From: Halorubrum tebenquichense DSM 14210
Lineage (GTDB): Archaea; Halobacteriota; Halobacteria; Halobacteriales; Haloferacaceae
Reading direction: 5' to 3'
Length of the DNA stretch: 52,737 nucleotides
Assembly (NCBI RefSeq): GCF_000337415.1
Contig: NZ_AOJD01000075.1
Coordinates: 29,691 to 82,427, forward strand
The notes under the pieces are model-generated. The model searched no databases, had not been told where the DNA came from, and was given only the letters and a program-made list of their open reading frames with translations. Positions 29,605 through 49,702 of the stretch are shown here, piece after piece (within the stretch, counting starts at the first letter, position 1; each line of letters opens with the position of its first letter). Position numbers and translations under genes: made by a program.

Positions 29605-30321
29605 TCAGTTCTCGTCCGCGTCGGACGGCGACTCGGTCACGATCCCCGGTTCCTTGCTCGCGATCACGACGATCCGGTCGGTGAGGTCCTCGACTGCGTT
29701 GGCGAGCTCGTCCAGCAGGATCGCGAGCTCCCGGTAGACGAGGGGCTGGTCGACCGCATCGTCGGCGAACACGGTCGCTATCGCGTCGTTGCGGAGGTCG
29801 TCGCACTCGCTCTCCAGTTCGCGGATCGCCTCGATCCCCTCGGTCAGCGTCTCCGTGGCGTCGGCGCGCGCCAGCCCCCTGACGAACCCCCCGACGACGC
29901 CGTCGAGGACCGCGACCATCTCGGCGATCCGGGCGGCCATCTCGCGCATGTCGTCGAAGGCGTCGACGCCTGCGTCGGGTCGCATCATCGCCACTTCCTG
30001 TGCGATCCGCTCGGTGTGATTCGCGACCACGTCCAGTTCGTTGTAGAAGTCGAGCAGGGCGGACTCGTTGAAGTTGATCCGGGTGTTCAACAGTCCGATG
30101 TCGTCCGGGCCCGCGTCCGTGATGAGCGCCCTGAGGTCGCGGACGAGGTCGTCGCACTCGCTCTCGACGGCCCCTATCTCGTCGACCGTGTCGCGGTACG
30201 GCCCGTCCGCCGCGTACTCGTCGAGGACCCGCGGCAGGAGGGCGACGCAGTCGTCGATCCGGTCGAGGTACGCCGCGGTCTGCGTCTCCAGCCGCTCCCC
30301 GAAATCGGCCTCGGTGGTCAT
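29605..30321 (-). CDS. PhoU-like DUF47-family protein
   Basis: A 238-residue all-helical protein. Two repeats each contain the acidic metal-binding pattern: ESECDDLVRDLR near 60 and ELESECDDLRNDA near 180, with NELDVVANHTERIA and LANAVEDLTDRIVV as the partner helices. DUF47 proteins resemble PhoU and often accompany PiT-type phosphate permeases as regulators; no permease is adjacent here. The ATG at 30321 is used because the upstream extension is Pro/Gly-rich and unlike the family. Confidence 0.88.
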   Translation of the reverse strand: MTTEADFGERLETQTAAYLDRIDDCVALLPRVLDEYAADGPYRDTVDEIGAVESECDDLVRDLRALITDAGPDDIGLLNTRINFNESALLDFYNELDVVANHTERIAQEVAMMRPDAGVDAFDDMREMAARIAEMVAVLDGVVGGFVRGLARADATETLTEGIEAIRELESECDDLRNDAIATVFADDAVDQPLVYRELAILLDELANAVEDLTDRIVVIASKEPGIVTESPSDADEN

Positions 30322-43834: not shown

Positions 43835-44479
43835 TTACGCCCCAGACTGCTTCTCGGTTACAAGCTTTAACCCGAAGCCGATCAGTACGCTACCGCTCGC
43901 GTACTGTATGAGTCTGGAGATCGTCTCGGAGCCAACAATGATGTGTCGGACCCGGCTGGCGAACGCTACCACGATCAGGAGATACAGGACGCTGAGGGTC
44001 GCGTAGGTCACCCCCAGAATCGAGATTTGGAGGGACACGCTTGCCGGTTGAGAGATAAACTGTGGGAAGAACGCGAAGACGAAAACCCCGACCTTTGGAT
44101 TGGAGACGTTGATCGTTACTGCCTGCCGGTATGACCGCCTGAGTGAAGTGGTCCCCTCCGAGAGGTTGTTCCGGATCTCGAACTCCCCGTCGCGTCGGAG
44201 CGTCTGAACACCGAGGTAGACGAGATAGGCGGCACCAAGGTACTTCACGACGGTGTAGGCGAGCGCCGACGTTCGGAGAATCGCAGCTAATCCGAGTACC
44301 GCTGCCATCGTGTGAACGAGGACTCCTGTTGCTGTTCCACACGCGGCGGCCGCACCAGCGTAGCGCCCGTGACGGAGGCTCTCCGTCAAGGTGTATATCG
44401 TATCGGGGCCGGGAGAGATAATGACAACAATCGCCGCCGAAACAAACGCGACCAGGGTTGGAAAATCGAAGAGAAGCAT
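43835..44479 (-). CDS. LysE/RhtB-family amino-acid exporter
   Basis: A 214-residue membrane protein with six hydrophobic segments. The N-terminal VIISPGPDTIYTL is the family signature (S-P-G-P), followed by SLRHGRYAGAAAACGTATG and the NVSNPKVGVFVFAFFPQF motif near 125-142. LysE/RhtB proteins export amino acids or derivatives. The gene lies in the lower-GC block, head-to-tail with the antiporter. Its upstream region has AT-rich TTTAAATATAAT at 44521-44532 on the minus strand, a probable promoter with a short leader. Confidence 0.88.
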   Translation of the reverse strand: MLLFDFPTLVAFVSAAIVVIISPGPDTIYTLTESLRHGRYAGAAAACGTATGVLVHTMAAVLGLAAILRTSALAYTVVKYLGAAYLVYLGVQTLRRDGEFEIRNNLSEGTTSLRRSYRQAVTINVSNPKVGVFVFAFFPQFISQPASVSLQISILGVTYATLSVLYLLIVVAFASRVRHIIVGSETISRLIQYASGSVLIGFGLKLVTEKQSGA

Positions 44480-44637
44480 ATTTAAGACAGTTGTTAGTTA
44501 ACTTGTGTTGACAGTCATGTATTATATTTAAATCGTTCAATTCGTGCTATCTCCCGACGCTCCGCGGATGTTCGGTCAATTACATTAGCCTTCAACAATC
44601 CTGGATAAAAAGAATTTGATCCTGACATTCTCTGTTG
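44480..44637. other. AT-rich promoter region of the LysE-family gene
   Basis: It contains the TATA-like element on the minus strand near 44521-44532 and no supported gene. The right end runs into the putative TnpB tail. Confidence 0.5.
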
Positions 44638-44850
44638 AAAACGGCCAATTCCGTCGAATCCGAGTGTGGTACGGCTGTCACGATCCCTTTCGACGTAGGC
44701 ACGGCGGGGGAGCGTACCGGCTGAGCGACTGAGGGACGCAACGAGTGTACGCCCGGCTCACGACGGGACTCTGGGGGACGTGTCTCCCCGGGTAGGACAA
44801 CTGACTTACACCCGAGCGGGTGGTCGATCAACTAGGCACCGATCTACGGC
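44638..44850 (+). mobile_element. Decayed 3' end of an IS1341-type (TnpB) element
   Basis: A plus-strand frame from 44638 to the stop at 44724 reads NSVESECGTAVTIPFD then GTAGERTG, closely resembling the C-terminal tail of haloarchaeal TnpB proteins as I remember it. Downstream, GGGGGAC-type sequence at 44773-44791 can fold on TCTCCCC, and CACCCG-AG-CGGGTG at 44809-44822 is a compact hairpin, like the right end of such elements where the guide RNA scaffold lies. The body of tnpB is missing. Identification rests on memory of the family, not on a search. Confidence 0.45.
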
Positions 44851-44971
44851 TCCGCACGGGCCAGCAAGCGGTTCTAGGCGGCCATTACGGGAGGCCGATG
44901 GTCATACATAGCCCTCAGTGACCCCGCCTCAGTTTACAAATAACACCCCTCAACGGAGCCGACGGACAGCC
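44851..44971. other. Intergenic, nothing recognised
   Basis: Short stretch between the element remnant and the acetyltransferase promoter; no gene or repeat identified. Confidence 0.5.
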
Positions 44972-44979
44972 CTTTTACC
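44972..44979 (+). promoter_or_regulatory. TATA-like box for the sugar acetyltransferase
   Basis: cttttacc lies 21-28 bases before the ATG at 45000, a leaderless arrangement. Confidence 0.5.
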
Positions 44980-44999
44980 AGCAGCCGCACCGGGTACGT

Positions 45000-45563
45000 A
45001 TGGGACGTGAGAAAGAGCGGATGCTCGCCGGCGAGGCGTACGACCCGACGGACCCGGAGCTCGTCGCCGACCGCCGGCGGGCGAGCGACCGCTGCCGCCG
45101 TTATAACGCCACCGCACCGACGGAGACCGACCGGCGCGAGCGACTCCTCCGTGAGCTGTTCGGCGAGGTCGGCGGCGACGCGGTCGTCGAGCCGCCGGTC
45201 CGCTGCGACTACGGGTACAACGTCGGCGTCGGCGACGCCTTCTTCGCGAACTACGGCTGCGTCTTCCTCGACGCCGCGCCGGTCGCGTTCGGCGAGAACT
45301 GCCTGCTCGGGCCGGGCGTCCACGTCTACACGTCGACGCATCCGATCGACCCCGACGAGCGGGCCGCGGGCCGGGAGTTCGGCGACCCCGTGACCGTCGG
45401 CGACGACGTCTGGATCGGCGGGCGGGCAGTGATCACTCCGAGGGTCGAGGTCGGTGACGGCGCGGTCGTCGCGGCCGGGGCGGTCGTCGTCGACGACGTG
45501 CCGGCGCGGACGGTCGTCGGGGGGAATCCCGCCGAGGTGATCCGGCGGATCGACGAGAAGTGA
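45000..45563 (+). CDS. Maltose/galactoside O-acetyltransferase-type protein
   Basis: A 187-residue enzyme of normal family length. EKERMLAGEAYDPTDPEL and RYNATAPTETDRRERLL form the typical N-terminal Mac domain; the beta-helix contains VRCDYGYNVGVGDAFFANYG, VYTSTHPIDPDERAAGREFG with the catalytic His, and VGDDVWIGGRAVITP. It transfers acetyl from acetyl-CoA to a sugar hydroxyl. Its C-terminus meets the prs gene tail-to-tail with only four bases between. Confidence 0.92.
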   Translation: MGREKERMLAGEAYDPTDPELVADRRRASDRCRRYNATAPTETDRRERLLRELFGEVGGDAVVEPPVRCDYGYNVGVGDAFFANYGCVFLDAAPVAFGENCLLGPGVHVYTSTHPIDPDERAAGREFGDPVTVGDDVWIGGRAVITPRVEVGDGAVVAAGAVVVDDVPARTVVGGNPAEVIRRIDEK

Positions 45564-47736: not shown

Positions 47737-47744
47737 CTTTTTAG
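47737..47744 (+). promoter_or_regulatory. TATA-like box before the interrupted frame
   Basis: cctttttag lies 30-37 bases before the ATG at 47774, the start of a short frame cut by the islet. Confidence 0.4.
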
Positions 47745-47773
47745 GCGTCTCCGCCGCTACCGACGAGCGGCCG

Positions 47774-47840
47774 ATGACGAACCACCGCTCCGAGCCGGAC
47801 TCGGCACCCGGCGGCGACGAGCCCTATGAGTACCGAGGCC
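47774..47840 (+). pseudogene. N-terminal fragment of a short gene interrupted by the AT-rich islet
   Basis: The frame MTNHRSEPDSAPGGDE then PYEYRG has haloarchaeal composition up to the 14-bp repeat, then enters AT-rich sequence. If the islet and one repeat copy (47841-49603) are removed, the frame continues across the junction as YRGLFQSNYSCVLPGD for about 40 more codons. This suggests the islet interrupted a small gene, though open frames are common in GC-rich DNA. Confidence 0.4.
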
Positions 47841-48008
47841 AGCTTTCTATCCATACATTTGCGAGGAGAGGTGTACGAGATCCCATACAGTTTAAATTCC
47901 CATTCAGGTTAGACTAGTCGCAGAACTGGTCTCGCTCTGGAAACGAGAAAATTCTGATTCTTAGAAACTTGTTCCTAGTATAGAACAATACAATATGCTG
48001 CTCTTCGG

Positions 48009-48185
48009 TTACTGTCCGTCGTGAACAGGCAGGTCAGCAAGCGTCTCAGAGTCACAGTCGAACGGGCCCGGTAGTTGGTCAGCAAAGGCTCGCACAAAGC
48101 CACTACTTCCCGGCTCCACGATCACCTCACCACCCGCGTGAACCGTCTCACGGTCTTCGTTCTCGCACGTCGTGGGCACGAGCAC
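48009..48185 (-). pseudogene. C-terminal fragment of an unidentified protein inside the islet
   Basis: The minus-strand frame reads VLVPTTCENEDRETVH then AGGEVIVEPGSSGFVRAF and ends LADLPVHDGQ. Composition is acidic and coherent, and its local GC is higher than the surrounding islet. The frame stays open upstream to a stop at 48228-48230 without an ATG, so either a GTG at 48185 starts a 58-residue protein or, more likely, this is a gene remnant. Family not recognised. Confidence 0.4.
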
Positions 48186-48298
48186 TAGAACACGCTTCTG
48201 AGAGGGAGTTGGCCCGGGGCTGGACGGTTAAAATTCTTAGTTCCATGTTGGTTATATTTCACCGAAAATTACTATACAGCTCCTGGCTACTTTAGATT

Positions 48299-49351
48299 AT
48301 GACACTCGAAATGGATGATCATCCATTTATCCGTCATGTTGGATTCGTCATCGTGTCTATCGTGCTGTTTTTGATCGTCGCTTGGATCTTTGGGATTGAA
48401 TTTACCGAACAGGTGCGGACGCAGATCTACATTGCGACCGGCGCAGGGTTGGGACTGGCCTTCGCTCGCAATGCTGTCAGGCGATTACTTCGCAGTGCTG
48501 GTCGTGGCTCGGAGTTCGTAGTTCTCTATTCGAGCTACCGGGCGTTGGGTGAGCGATTCGTTGTTCTTTGGATGCTAGGTTTCATCGTGCTAACCGTAAT
48601 CTCCGGTGGATCAGTTGACCTTGTCGGGTTCAAACATGTCGCTATGATCGTGCTCATGTTCGTGCTTGCCATCGCCTCTGCGAGTTTCCCTAACCTGAAC
48701 CGCACGCTGAGAGACATGGTGTGGATACTCACCGCCATAGCTTCGGCAGCCGTTGTCGTTTTCCTACTGTATTCGGTCGTCGAATCGATCGTATCAACAA
48801 GACTGGATCTGTTGTCGTTCTCCACGACGATTGAATTGCTCGAACCGGTAATAGCGTCAGCAGTTGTAATCGGGGCAATACAAGTTATAATTGGGAGAAC
48901 AGTCGGACCAACGACGAGAGAACTTGAGTACGATCGACATCCATCTGCGGTGTCAGTTTCATCTGATAATGACGAGAAATTTTTGGAAGCAGTACAAGAG
49001 TTAGCTGAGATCTGGGAAGAGAATACAAAAAGTGGTCCAAGGCGTCATTCAGCTAACGCTCGTCAAACAAGTGTTACCATTTCAGTCAATGGAAAGCAAA
49101 AAGCGGACTATAATATTGAACTAGGTGCCGACTCTGATCGTTGGGGTTATTCAAGGATTGTATCCGAGATCGGCGACAAGAACGCAAGATGGATCAGTAG
49201 AGAGGGTTCGCCACAATATCCCGATAAGGTTGAGACGGCGAAGTTCCTCCAATTGAAAGTGATAACGGATGTCTCAAGTTTGGGAATTAAAGAGCGAGTG
49301 TACCTCAGGATACAAGCAGTCAAGAGATCGGTTTTTGGATCAAATACGTGA
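48299..49351 (+). CDS. Orphan multi-spanning membrane protein with cytoplasmic C-terminal domain
   Basis: A 350-residue protein. Membrane segments lie at about 14-32 (VGFVIVSIVLFLIVAWIF), 42-55, 88-102, 110-128, 138-160 and 180-198; a soluble domain of about 150 residues follows (from FLEAVQELAEIWEENT), rich in Lys/Ser/Asn and less acidic than typical local proteins. Codon use is AT-leaning. The TATA-like tactatac lies about 22-30 bases before the ATG. I recognise no family. As the only intact gene of a repeat-bounded islet it could be a defence, immunity or other accessory protein; that is speculation. Confidence 0.7.
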   Translation: MTLEMDDHPFIRHVGFVIVSIVLFLIVAWIFGIEFTEQVRTQIYIATGAGLGLAFARNAVRRLLRSAGRGSEFVVLYSSYRALGERFVVLWMLGFIVLTVISGGSVDLVGFKHVAMIVLMFVLAIASASFPNLNRTLRDMVWILTAIASAAVVVFLLYSVVESIVSTRLDLLSFSTTIELLEPVIASAVVIGAIQVIIGRTVGPTTRELEYDRHPSAVSVSSDNDEKFLEAVQELAEIWEENTKSGPRRHSANARQTSVTISVNGKQKADYNIELGADSDRWGYSRIVSEIGDKNARWISREGSPQYPDKVETAKFLQLKVITDVSSLGIKERVYLRIQAVKRSVFGSNT

Positions 49352-49589
49352 CACCGTCATCTTAGGGTTTAGATATAGACACTACCGTGCGGTGTTGTCG
49401 GTCTCTGTTACGTCTTGATTGTTCAATAGAGAGGGACAACATTGTGTATACGAACACTACAGCCTGAACCGAGGCTTGTCATGATCGAGACAGTCGTGGA
49501 CCAATGTATCCAGATACTGGATGAACCGTGACGGAATGAGAGATTCTATAGAATCTCTAATATCTCCTCTATAGATAGATTGTGAGCTG
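49352..49589. other. AT-rich 3' part of the islet, no gene
   Basis: No coding frame is supported. It contains an exact 20-bp palindrome (49539-49558) followed by more short AT-rich inverted motifs (tctatagata) up to the right-hand direct repeat. Confidence 0.5.
49539..49558. repeat. Perfect 20-bp palindrome near the islet right end
   Basis: The ten bases agagattcta are followed directly by their reverse complement. It could be a recombinase or regulator binding site or a terminator-like hairpin for the membrane-protein gene, whose stop is about 190 bases upstream. Confidence 0.6.
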
Positions 49590-49702
49590 TGAGTACCGAG
49601 GCCTCTTTCAATCGAACTACAGCTGCGTGCTGCCCGGCGATCACGACACGCACTCCACGCGGACGCGGGTCGGCACGATCGAGCGACGAGCGAGCGCCCC
49701 GA

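Follow-up and report, generated by a model that had tools for sequence, protein, structure and literature searches.

The question raised by this locus is how an AT-rich islet bounded by direct repeats came to lie in the GC-rich DNA of Halorubrum tebenquichense DSM 14210. The window, that is, the whole stretch of 52,737 nt that was analysed, has a G+C content of 69.2%, against 47.7% in the islet interior, and a scan of it located TGAGTACCGAGGCC as two exact copies in the same orientation, spaced 1763 bp apart, at the two ends of the islet (Table 1). Both the AT-rich block and the exact 14-bp repeats that the first-pass annotation had described were thereby recovered. A third site with at most two mismatches to the repeat occurs only at 30307 (2 mismatches). 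By itself, a repeat of 14 bp is weak evidence and not significant, since exact direct repeats come cheaply in GC-rich DNA of this kind: the window contains 414 pairs of identical 14-mers, of which 73 have their copies no more than 3 kb apart. The insertion is judged real because of the comparison with relatives rather than because of the repeat. In a genome of the same genus (G072), the match to the upstream flank (87.5%) ends with the last base ahead of the core, and that to the downstream flank (92.3%) begins with the core's first base, so that the junction reads CCCTATGAGTACCGAGGCC directly followed by TCTTTCAATCGAACTAC. This is, base for base, the single-copy empty site that had been predicted. 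The site is likewise unoccupied in a second relative (G016), which has lost a short stretch immediately downstream of the core. The islet is thus a precise insertion whose one-copy empty site is found in relatives.

The left repeat corresponds to the end of the gene for sR-tMet, a C/D-box sRNA, which was identified by Rfam with a score of 69.6 bits (gathering threshold 50; E = 5e-13) and has one copy in this genome. Because this repeat makes up the final 14 nt of sR-tMet, the islet can be described as an integrative element with an sRNA gene as its attB. According to a passage of PMC4033218 that cites Joardar 2011, sR-tMet directs the 2'-O-methylation of elongator tRNA-Met at C34 in haloarchaea. 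Of 99 genomes drawn from the whole order, 94 have the gene, almost without exception in a single copy, and within the genus the motif CCCTATGAGTRCCGAGGC (≤1 mismatch) was found in 50 of 52 genomes, being single in all but one. Conservation stops at the core, beyond which the sequence varies from species to species. The short frame starting at 47774, which had been thought to be interrupted by the islet, does become continuous once one repeat copy is removed. It is not a gene, however, and its presence is incidental, since the Rfam match stands there and the sequence after the core is unrelated among species. A protein-coding target (this frame, or the zinc-finger peptide also considered) was ruled out on the same grounds, and a tRNA target was rejected, as neither the window nor any of 7 other occupied loci has a tRNA at its att sites. 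Instead of disrupting a protein frame, the insertion leaves the entire sRNA and its promoter side unharmed; T-rich boxes lie in relatives at the position equivalent to that of the putative TATA box. Beyond the islet, about 40 bp (49610–49651; SNYDCILPGEHDTP...) resemble a stretch of a conserved gene located elsewhere in related genomes, a small gene fragment that is also present in the empty G072.

Table 1. Features of the islet and of its target in the window (islet element: 47841–49603, i.e. the interior plus one core)
Feature	Position	Strand	Basis or remark
Putative TATA box of sR-tMet, TTTTTA	47738–47743	+	26–31 bp before RNA start; likely promoter role
Intact gene for sR-tMet (C/D-box sRNA), the attachment target	47769–47840	+	Rfam RF02163, full length 1–72/72
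Left core, last 14 nt of sR-tMet	47827–47840	+	Exact copy of right core; invariant at most loci on the left side
Left arm of element, with TCTATCCATA at 47846–47855	47841–47878	+	87–95% identity to element ends in G017, G028, G041, G003 and G053
Relic (C-terminal 58 codons) of the 151-aa gene that is whole in the G053 element	48009–48185	-	tblastn, 74% over 61 aa
ORFan of 350 aa; ~5 hydrophobic segments followed by a soluble C-terminal half	48299–49351	+	Hydropathy; only complete ORF in the islet
VapC-like toxin gene, 3'-terminal relic (LVMIETVVDQCIQILDEP*)	49440–49531	+	69–73% DNA identity to right ends of 920-bp VapBC cassettes
Repeat shared by right ends in the cassette family, including the right arm	49532–49589	+	Alignment of 62 right ends
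Right core	49590–49603	+	Exact copy of left core; begins with first base of downstream alignment to empty G072

As had been noted from the ORF list, the islet encodes neither a transposase nor an integrase, and it is non-autonomous because it lacks an integrase gene of its own. The gene taken to be its single orphan is indeed an ORFan: the 350-aa protein has no homologue among 391 other genomes of the order and no Pfam, NCBIfam, PADLOC or PHROG family, and an AlphaFold2 model built without homologues was set aside at a pLDDT of 44.9. It is accompanied, though, by two gene relics, which escaped the first-pass annotation along with the sRNA target and the order-wide cassette family presented below. 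The DNA of the first relic is 78–81% identical to G053 and G017. At the right end, TATAGATAGA (49570–49579) mirrors TCTATCCATA of the left arm with one mismatch, and the right arm has 3 mismatches to the consensus. Judged from these similarities, the islet appears to be a mosaic in decay, composed of the membrane ORFan and two cassettes from which an internal core has been lost; its parts would be the left end of an integrase-type element, the ORFan gene and the right end of a VapBC cassette. Elsewhere in the window, a second AT-rich dip (53–57% G+C, within 44000–45000) with an ORF for a LysE/RhtB-like transporter recognized by eye (43835–44479, minus strand) was possibly also acquired.

Direct repeats of about 14 bp could have arisen as a target-site duplication, either by an IS/MITE-type insertion, as considered initially, or by a casposon-type insertion. 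Casposons favour the ends of stable-RNA genes, near which they have direct repeats of about 14 bp. Against such an origin, dozens of species have this conserved repeat in an identical position, with one copy present within sR-tMet before insertion, and no variable target-site duplication is seen at any of the loci. Moreover, a search of 59 relatives detected no islet ends elsewhere in the genome flanked by 14-bp duplications of other sequence. The islet contains no Cas1, no polymerase and no transposase, and its ends have no terminal inverted repeat, let alone a long one, apart from the short arm repeat. A duplication by any of these routes is therefore extremely unlikely, and the 14 bp are best seen as an attachment core serving repeatedly at a single site across many species.

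The pattern formed by the right arm plus the core, GATAGATNGTGAGTCGTGAGTRCCGAGGCC (≤3 mismatches), was found in 65 of 392 genomes, belonging to 37 of 95 genera, with no match to a reversed control pattern. In stretches of up to 20 kb around these matches, together with the regions downstream of sR-tMet in the genus, about 55 sR-tMet loci have a downstream partner core; they form a family of inserts that spans 29 genera and 7 families, shares the core and mostly has a common right-hand arm. Rfam confirmed sR-tMet at all 7 loci tested. The left core is nearly invariant; at 25 of 56 loci (a count that includes G087) it is not identical to the right core, and the changes are mostly on the right, as expected if selection acts on the sRNA copy only. 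A total of 67 core-to-core units could be delimited, with a median length of 1.64 kb and 29 of them under 1.2 kb. Units also occur in tandem arrays of differing order, e.g. 805+836+921 bp in G408, 806+836 bp in G341 and 921+837 bp in G325. According to the alignment of 62 right ends, a repeat of ~60 bp (TTACGGATTGAGCGGCGTCTATAGCCGCGCTAAACACATTCACTATGGATAGATTGTGAGTCG) directly precedes the core and is often common to cassettes with unrelated cargo. The consensus places TCTATCCATA 5 bp past the left core and an inverted copy of it 10 bp ahead of the right core, a pair that is kept in the window with its one mismatch. Hairpin pairing or covariation of the right-end repeat was not significant, 15 of 200 chimera sets being equally stable.

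Some units lie away from sR-tMet, at secondary sites in G359, G087 and G043. The 7.5-kb element of G087 was at first counted as anchored at sR-tMet and then rejected, since Rfam places sR-tMet elsewhere in that genome; it is a secondary-site insertion and is not among the ~55 loci. Loci L203 (G359), L178 (G328), L200 (G298) and L170 (G087) have the same right arm off sR-tMet, and there the upstream half of the adjoining core is unrelated. Two further loci, L102 (G013, contig C31) and L115 (G002), carry displaced sR-tMet 3' ends that match the sRNA over a longer stretch (22 and 18 bp, respectively) and lack the usual right arm, and possibly represent other element families using sR-tMet.

VapBC-like cassettes (n = 16) measure 918–922 bp and occur in four families; all of them carry the same antitoxin (RHH-like) and the same toxin (PIN-like) at equal offsets. 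Other pair units encode DUF433 and DUF5615 proteins (805/806 bp) or a VapB-like protein and a PIN protein (836/837 bp). Pairs of the PIN toxin–antitoxin type are the commonest cargo and adjoin the RNA involved in methylation of the tRNA-Met anticodon (L112, L110, L078, L080, L090, L103 and others). Heliorhodopsin (NCBIfam HeR, 357 bits), the function of which is still debated, is the lone gene of units from three families, with lengths of 1139, 1162 and 1164 bp; these cassettes (L091 in G064, L193 in G083 and L169 in G076) are 83–86% identical over much of their length. A bacteriorhodopsin-family protein (PF01036, 3e-47) is encoded in units of G378 and G058, and the two cassettes, L217 and L199, respectively, come from two families and are 87% identical over 1.3 kb. 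Further single-gene units carry an apparently split carotenoid oxygenase of the retinal-related RPE65 family (G120), a subtilase (G117), an S66 peptidase (G242) and a ferredoxin-reductase-like protein (G256).

Evidence for movement comes from two integrase-less VapBC cassettes in two species (G020 and G013), which are 98.8% identical over their whole length and have unlike flanks. Identity is 97–100% inside the unit and drops at both cores to 32–60% outside, with ~86% in the sRNA region and non-homologous downstream flanks. Because identity ends at both cores, the exact core-to-core unit has been transferred horizontally. No cognate integrase was found in either genome. It could be argued that such cassettes spread by homologous recombination between sR-tMet regions, for which the conserved sRNA gene could serve as a seed, rather than by site-specific recombination. 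This is highly improbable, given the collapse of identity at both cores, the lack of homology downstream and an empty site that is exact to the base.

Given that constant-size units recur and that one of them has moved horizontally, the small units are mobile in general. Whether this extends to the copy in the window is another matter. It could still be a substrate because both outer cores are exact; on the other hand, this copy may be immobile, a frozen remnant being an alternative to be taken seriously in view of the three mismatches in the arm and of the relics. In its strongest form, the alternative would be that a large integrase-bearing element at sR-tMet shrank by internal deletions and never was a cassette. 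The truncated 151-aa gene and the VapC tail would fit such a history, as would a left arm of the type found in integrase-type elements, and the decayed integrase of G041 indicates that such decay occurs. Nevertheless, we regard it as unlikely, in view of the exactness of both outer cores and of the integrase-less units of constant size (16 at 918–922 bp) in four families, one of which moved horizontally without an integrase.

We therefore favour the explanation that the islet is probably a site-specifically integrated, integrase-less cassette at the 3' end of sR-tMet, mobilized in trans by SNJ2-like integrases. The chromosomal 14-bp core would recombine with a matching core on a circular form, inserting the DNA and rebuilding an intact sR-tMet, in parallel with the restoration of tRNA genes by tRNA-targeting elements. 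Across Halobacteria, this one site accepts interchangeable cassettes of a single gene or an operon, one at a time or several in a row, and the exchange may still be active. No circular form or excision was seen, and attP was absent from IMG/VR, phages and plasmids: two core matches in IMG/VR (L247 and L248) were rejected as attP because they lie in unrelated coding sequence, and the right arm has one partial match of 28 bp on a Halobacterium hubeiense plasmid and none in phages.

As to the enzyme, integrase genes (PF00589) are confined to some of the larger elements. Six sR-tMet elements (G275, G028, G391, G308, G053 and G183) encode a tyrosine recombinase of ~310 aa, which in the two cases checked (G053 and G028) consists of the PF00589 catalytic domain and a SAM-like N-domain, and which is adjoined by a co-oriented gene of ~165–177 aa without Pfam or PHROG family. 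The operon partners in SNJ2-type systems are coiled-coil and MarR-like proteins. In G041 the integrase copy is broken. The type of left arm tracks the type of integrase: G053-like integrases (87–91% identical) go with AGCTTTCTATCCATA-type arms, and those of G028 and G308 (~69%) with TCGACTMTAGGACC arms. The left arm in the window is common to five G053-like elements, including the broken one of G041 and that at the secondary site in G087. These common arms support the earlier suggestion of a non-autonomous islet mobilized in trans, and the recombinase would most likely be an SNJ2-like tyrosine integrase borne by the few larger, arm-sharing elements. Against this reading, a search of 47 genomes (45 with cassettes, two empty) found a close relative of the integrase in G041 only, and there it is split; its action from visiting elements is therefore inferred. 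Outside these genomes, matches in phages are distant (~25%), one match of 64.5% lies on a Natrinema salinisoli plasmid, and no relatives were found in viral contigs. The main rival on this point is that the cassettes are moved by a tyrosine recombinase of the host itself, be it XerA-like or not. In its favour, cassette genomes without the G053-type integrase all have other tyrosine recombinase candidates, and G000 has weak matches of 330–400 aa. We consider a resident enzyme improbable nonetheless, since the integrase-bearing elements have the same core and arms, with arm type following integrase type, and since a non-exhaustive check linked no single resident family to the cassettes.

The preferred reading, cassettes served by visiting integrases, has counterparts among known systems. 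SNJ2 reportedly uses a core of 14 bp at tRNA-Met. The larger elements resemble SNJ2, a betapleolipovirus, and its relatives in integrase architecture, host range and core length, a likeness based on the published description rather than on the IntSNJ2 sequence: SNJ2-type integrases combine PF00589 with a SAM-like N-domain, have a neighbouring gene, occur in Halobacteria only and use a short core located 3'-terminally in a stable-RNA gene (PMC8371274). They differ in that the target is the sR-tMet sRNA gene and not a tRNA gene, and most of the inserts here are integrase-less one-gene cassettes. Like genomic islands in tRNA and tmRNA genes, the islet has a core formed by the 3' end of an RNA gene, which is restored, with a displaced fragment marking the other end; unlike them, it sits at a C/D-box guide-RNA gene, and the cargo in the family is often under 1.2 kb and without integrase. 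Repeats derived from the RNA gene 3' end and an empty site, as in site-specific integrative elements at stable-RNA genes, are thus both observed, whereas an integrase of its own is absent.

The layout also recalls integrons and CALINs, including the archaeal IntI integrons (PMC9668308), in that one receptor site takes up tandem, small, single-gene cassettes in variable order, with a repeat common to the cassette 3' ends and with arrays that lack a resident integrase. The integrase is, however, XerA/SNJ2-like (XerA_Arch, 201.9 bits; 66.3 bits for the integron integrase profile TIGR02249, below its cut-off of 265), it travels on some of the elements rather than residing beside the receptor, and the receptor is an sRNA gene. 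By integrase type, and with attC folding not demonstrated, the system fails to qualify as an integron, its layout being integron-like. We lean slightly towards the broader view that it represents an integron-like cassette exchange of independent origin in haloarchaea, in which sR-tMet would be the receptor, the cassette ends would be attC-like, and a visiting SNJ2/XerA-like integrase would shuffle toxin–antitoxin pairs, rhodopsins and enzymes between genera.

A search of mainly open-access literature for sRNA-gene attachment sites or haloarchaeal cassettes returned nothing relevant. A review on tyrosine recombinases in archaea names tRNA, intergenic and coding sequences as attachment sites, and the term sRNA occurs nowhere in it; the archaeal integron paper (PMC9668308) deals with IntI-based integrons and mentions neither Halobacteria nor Halorubrum. 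Integrative elements targeting stable-RNA genes are a known kind; what appears to be new is the sRNA target combined with the integron-like cassette organization, the C/D-box guide-RNA gene being an apparently undescribed class of archaeal attachment site. Its short, defined sites make the system directly testable and potentially a haloarchaeal genetic tool. It also accounts for a class of integrase-less ORFan islets that are otherwise seen as unexplained AT-rich patches, and it appears to offer a route by which single genes, such as those for heliorhodopsin, bacteriorhodopsin-family proteins, carotenoid oxygenase, proteases and PIN-type toxin–antitoxin pairs, may pass between haloarchaeal genera as small units.
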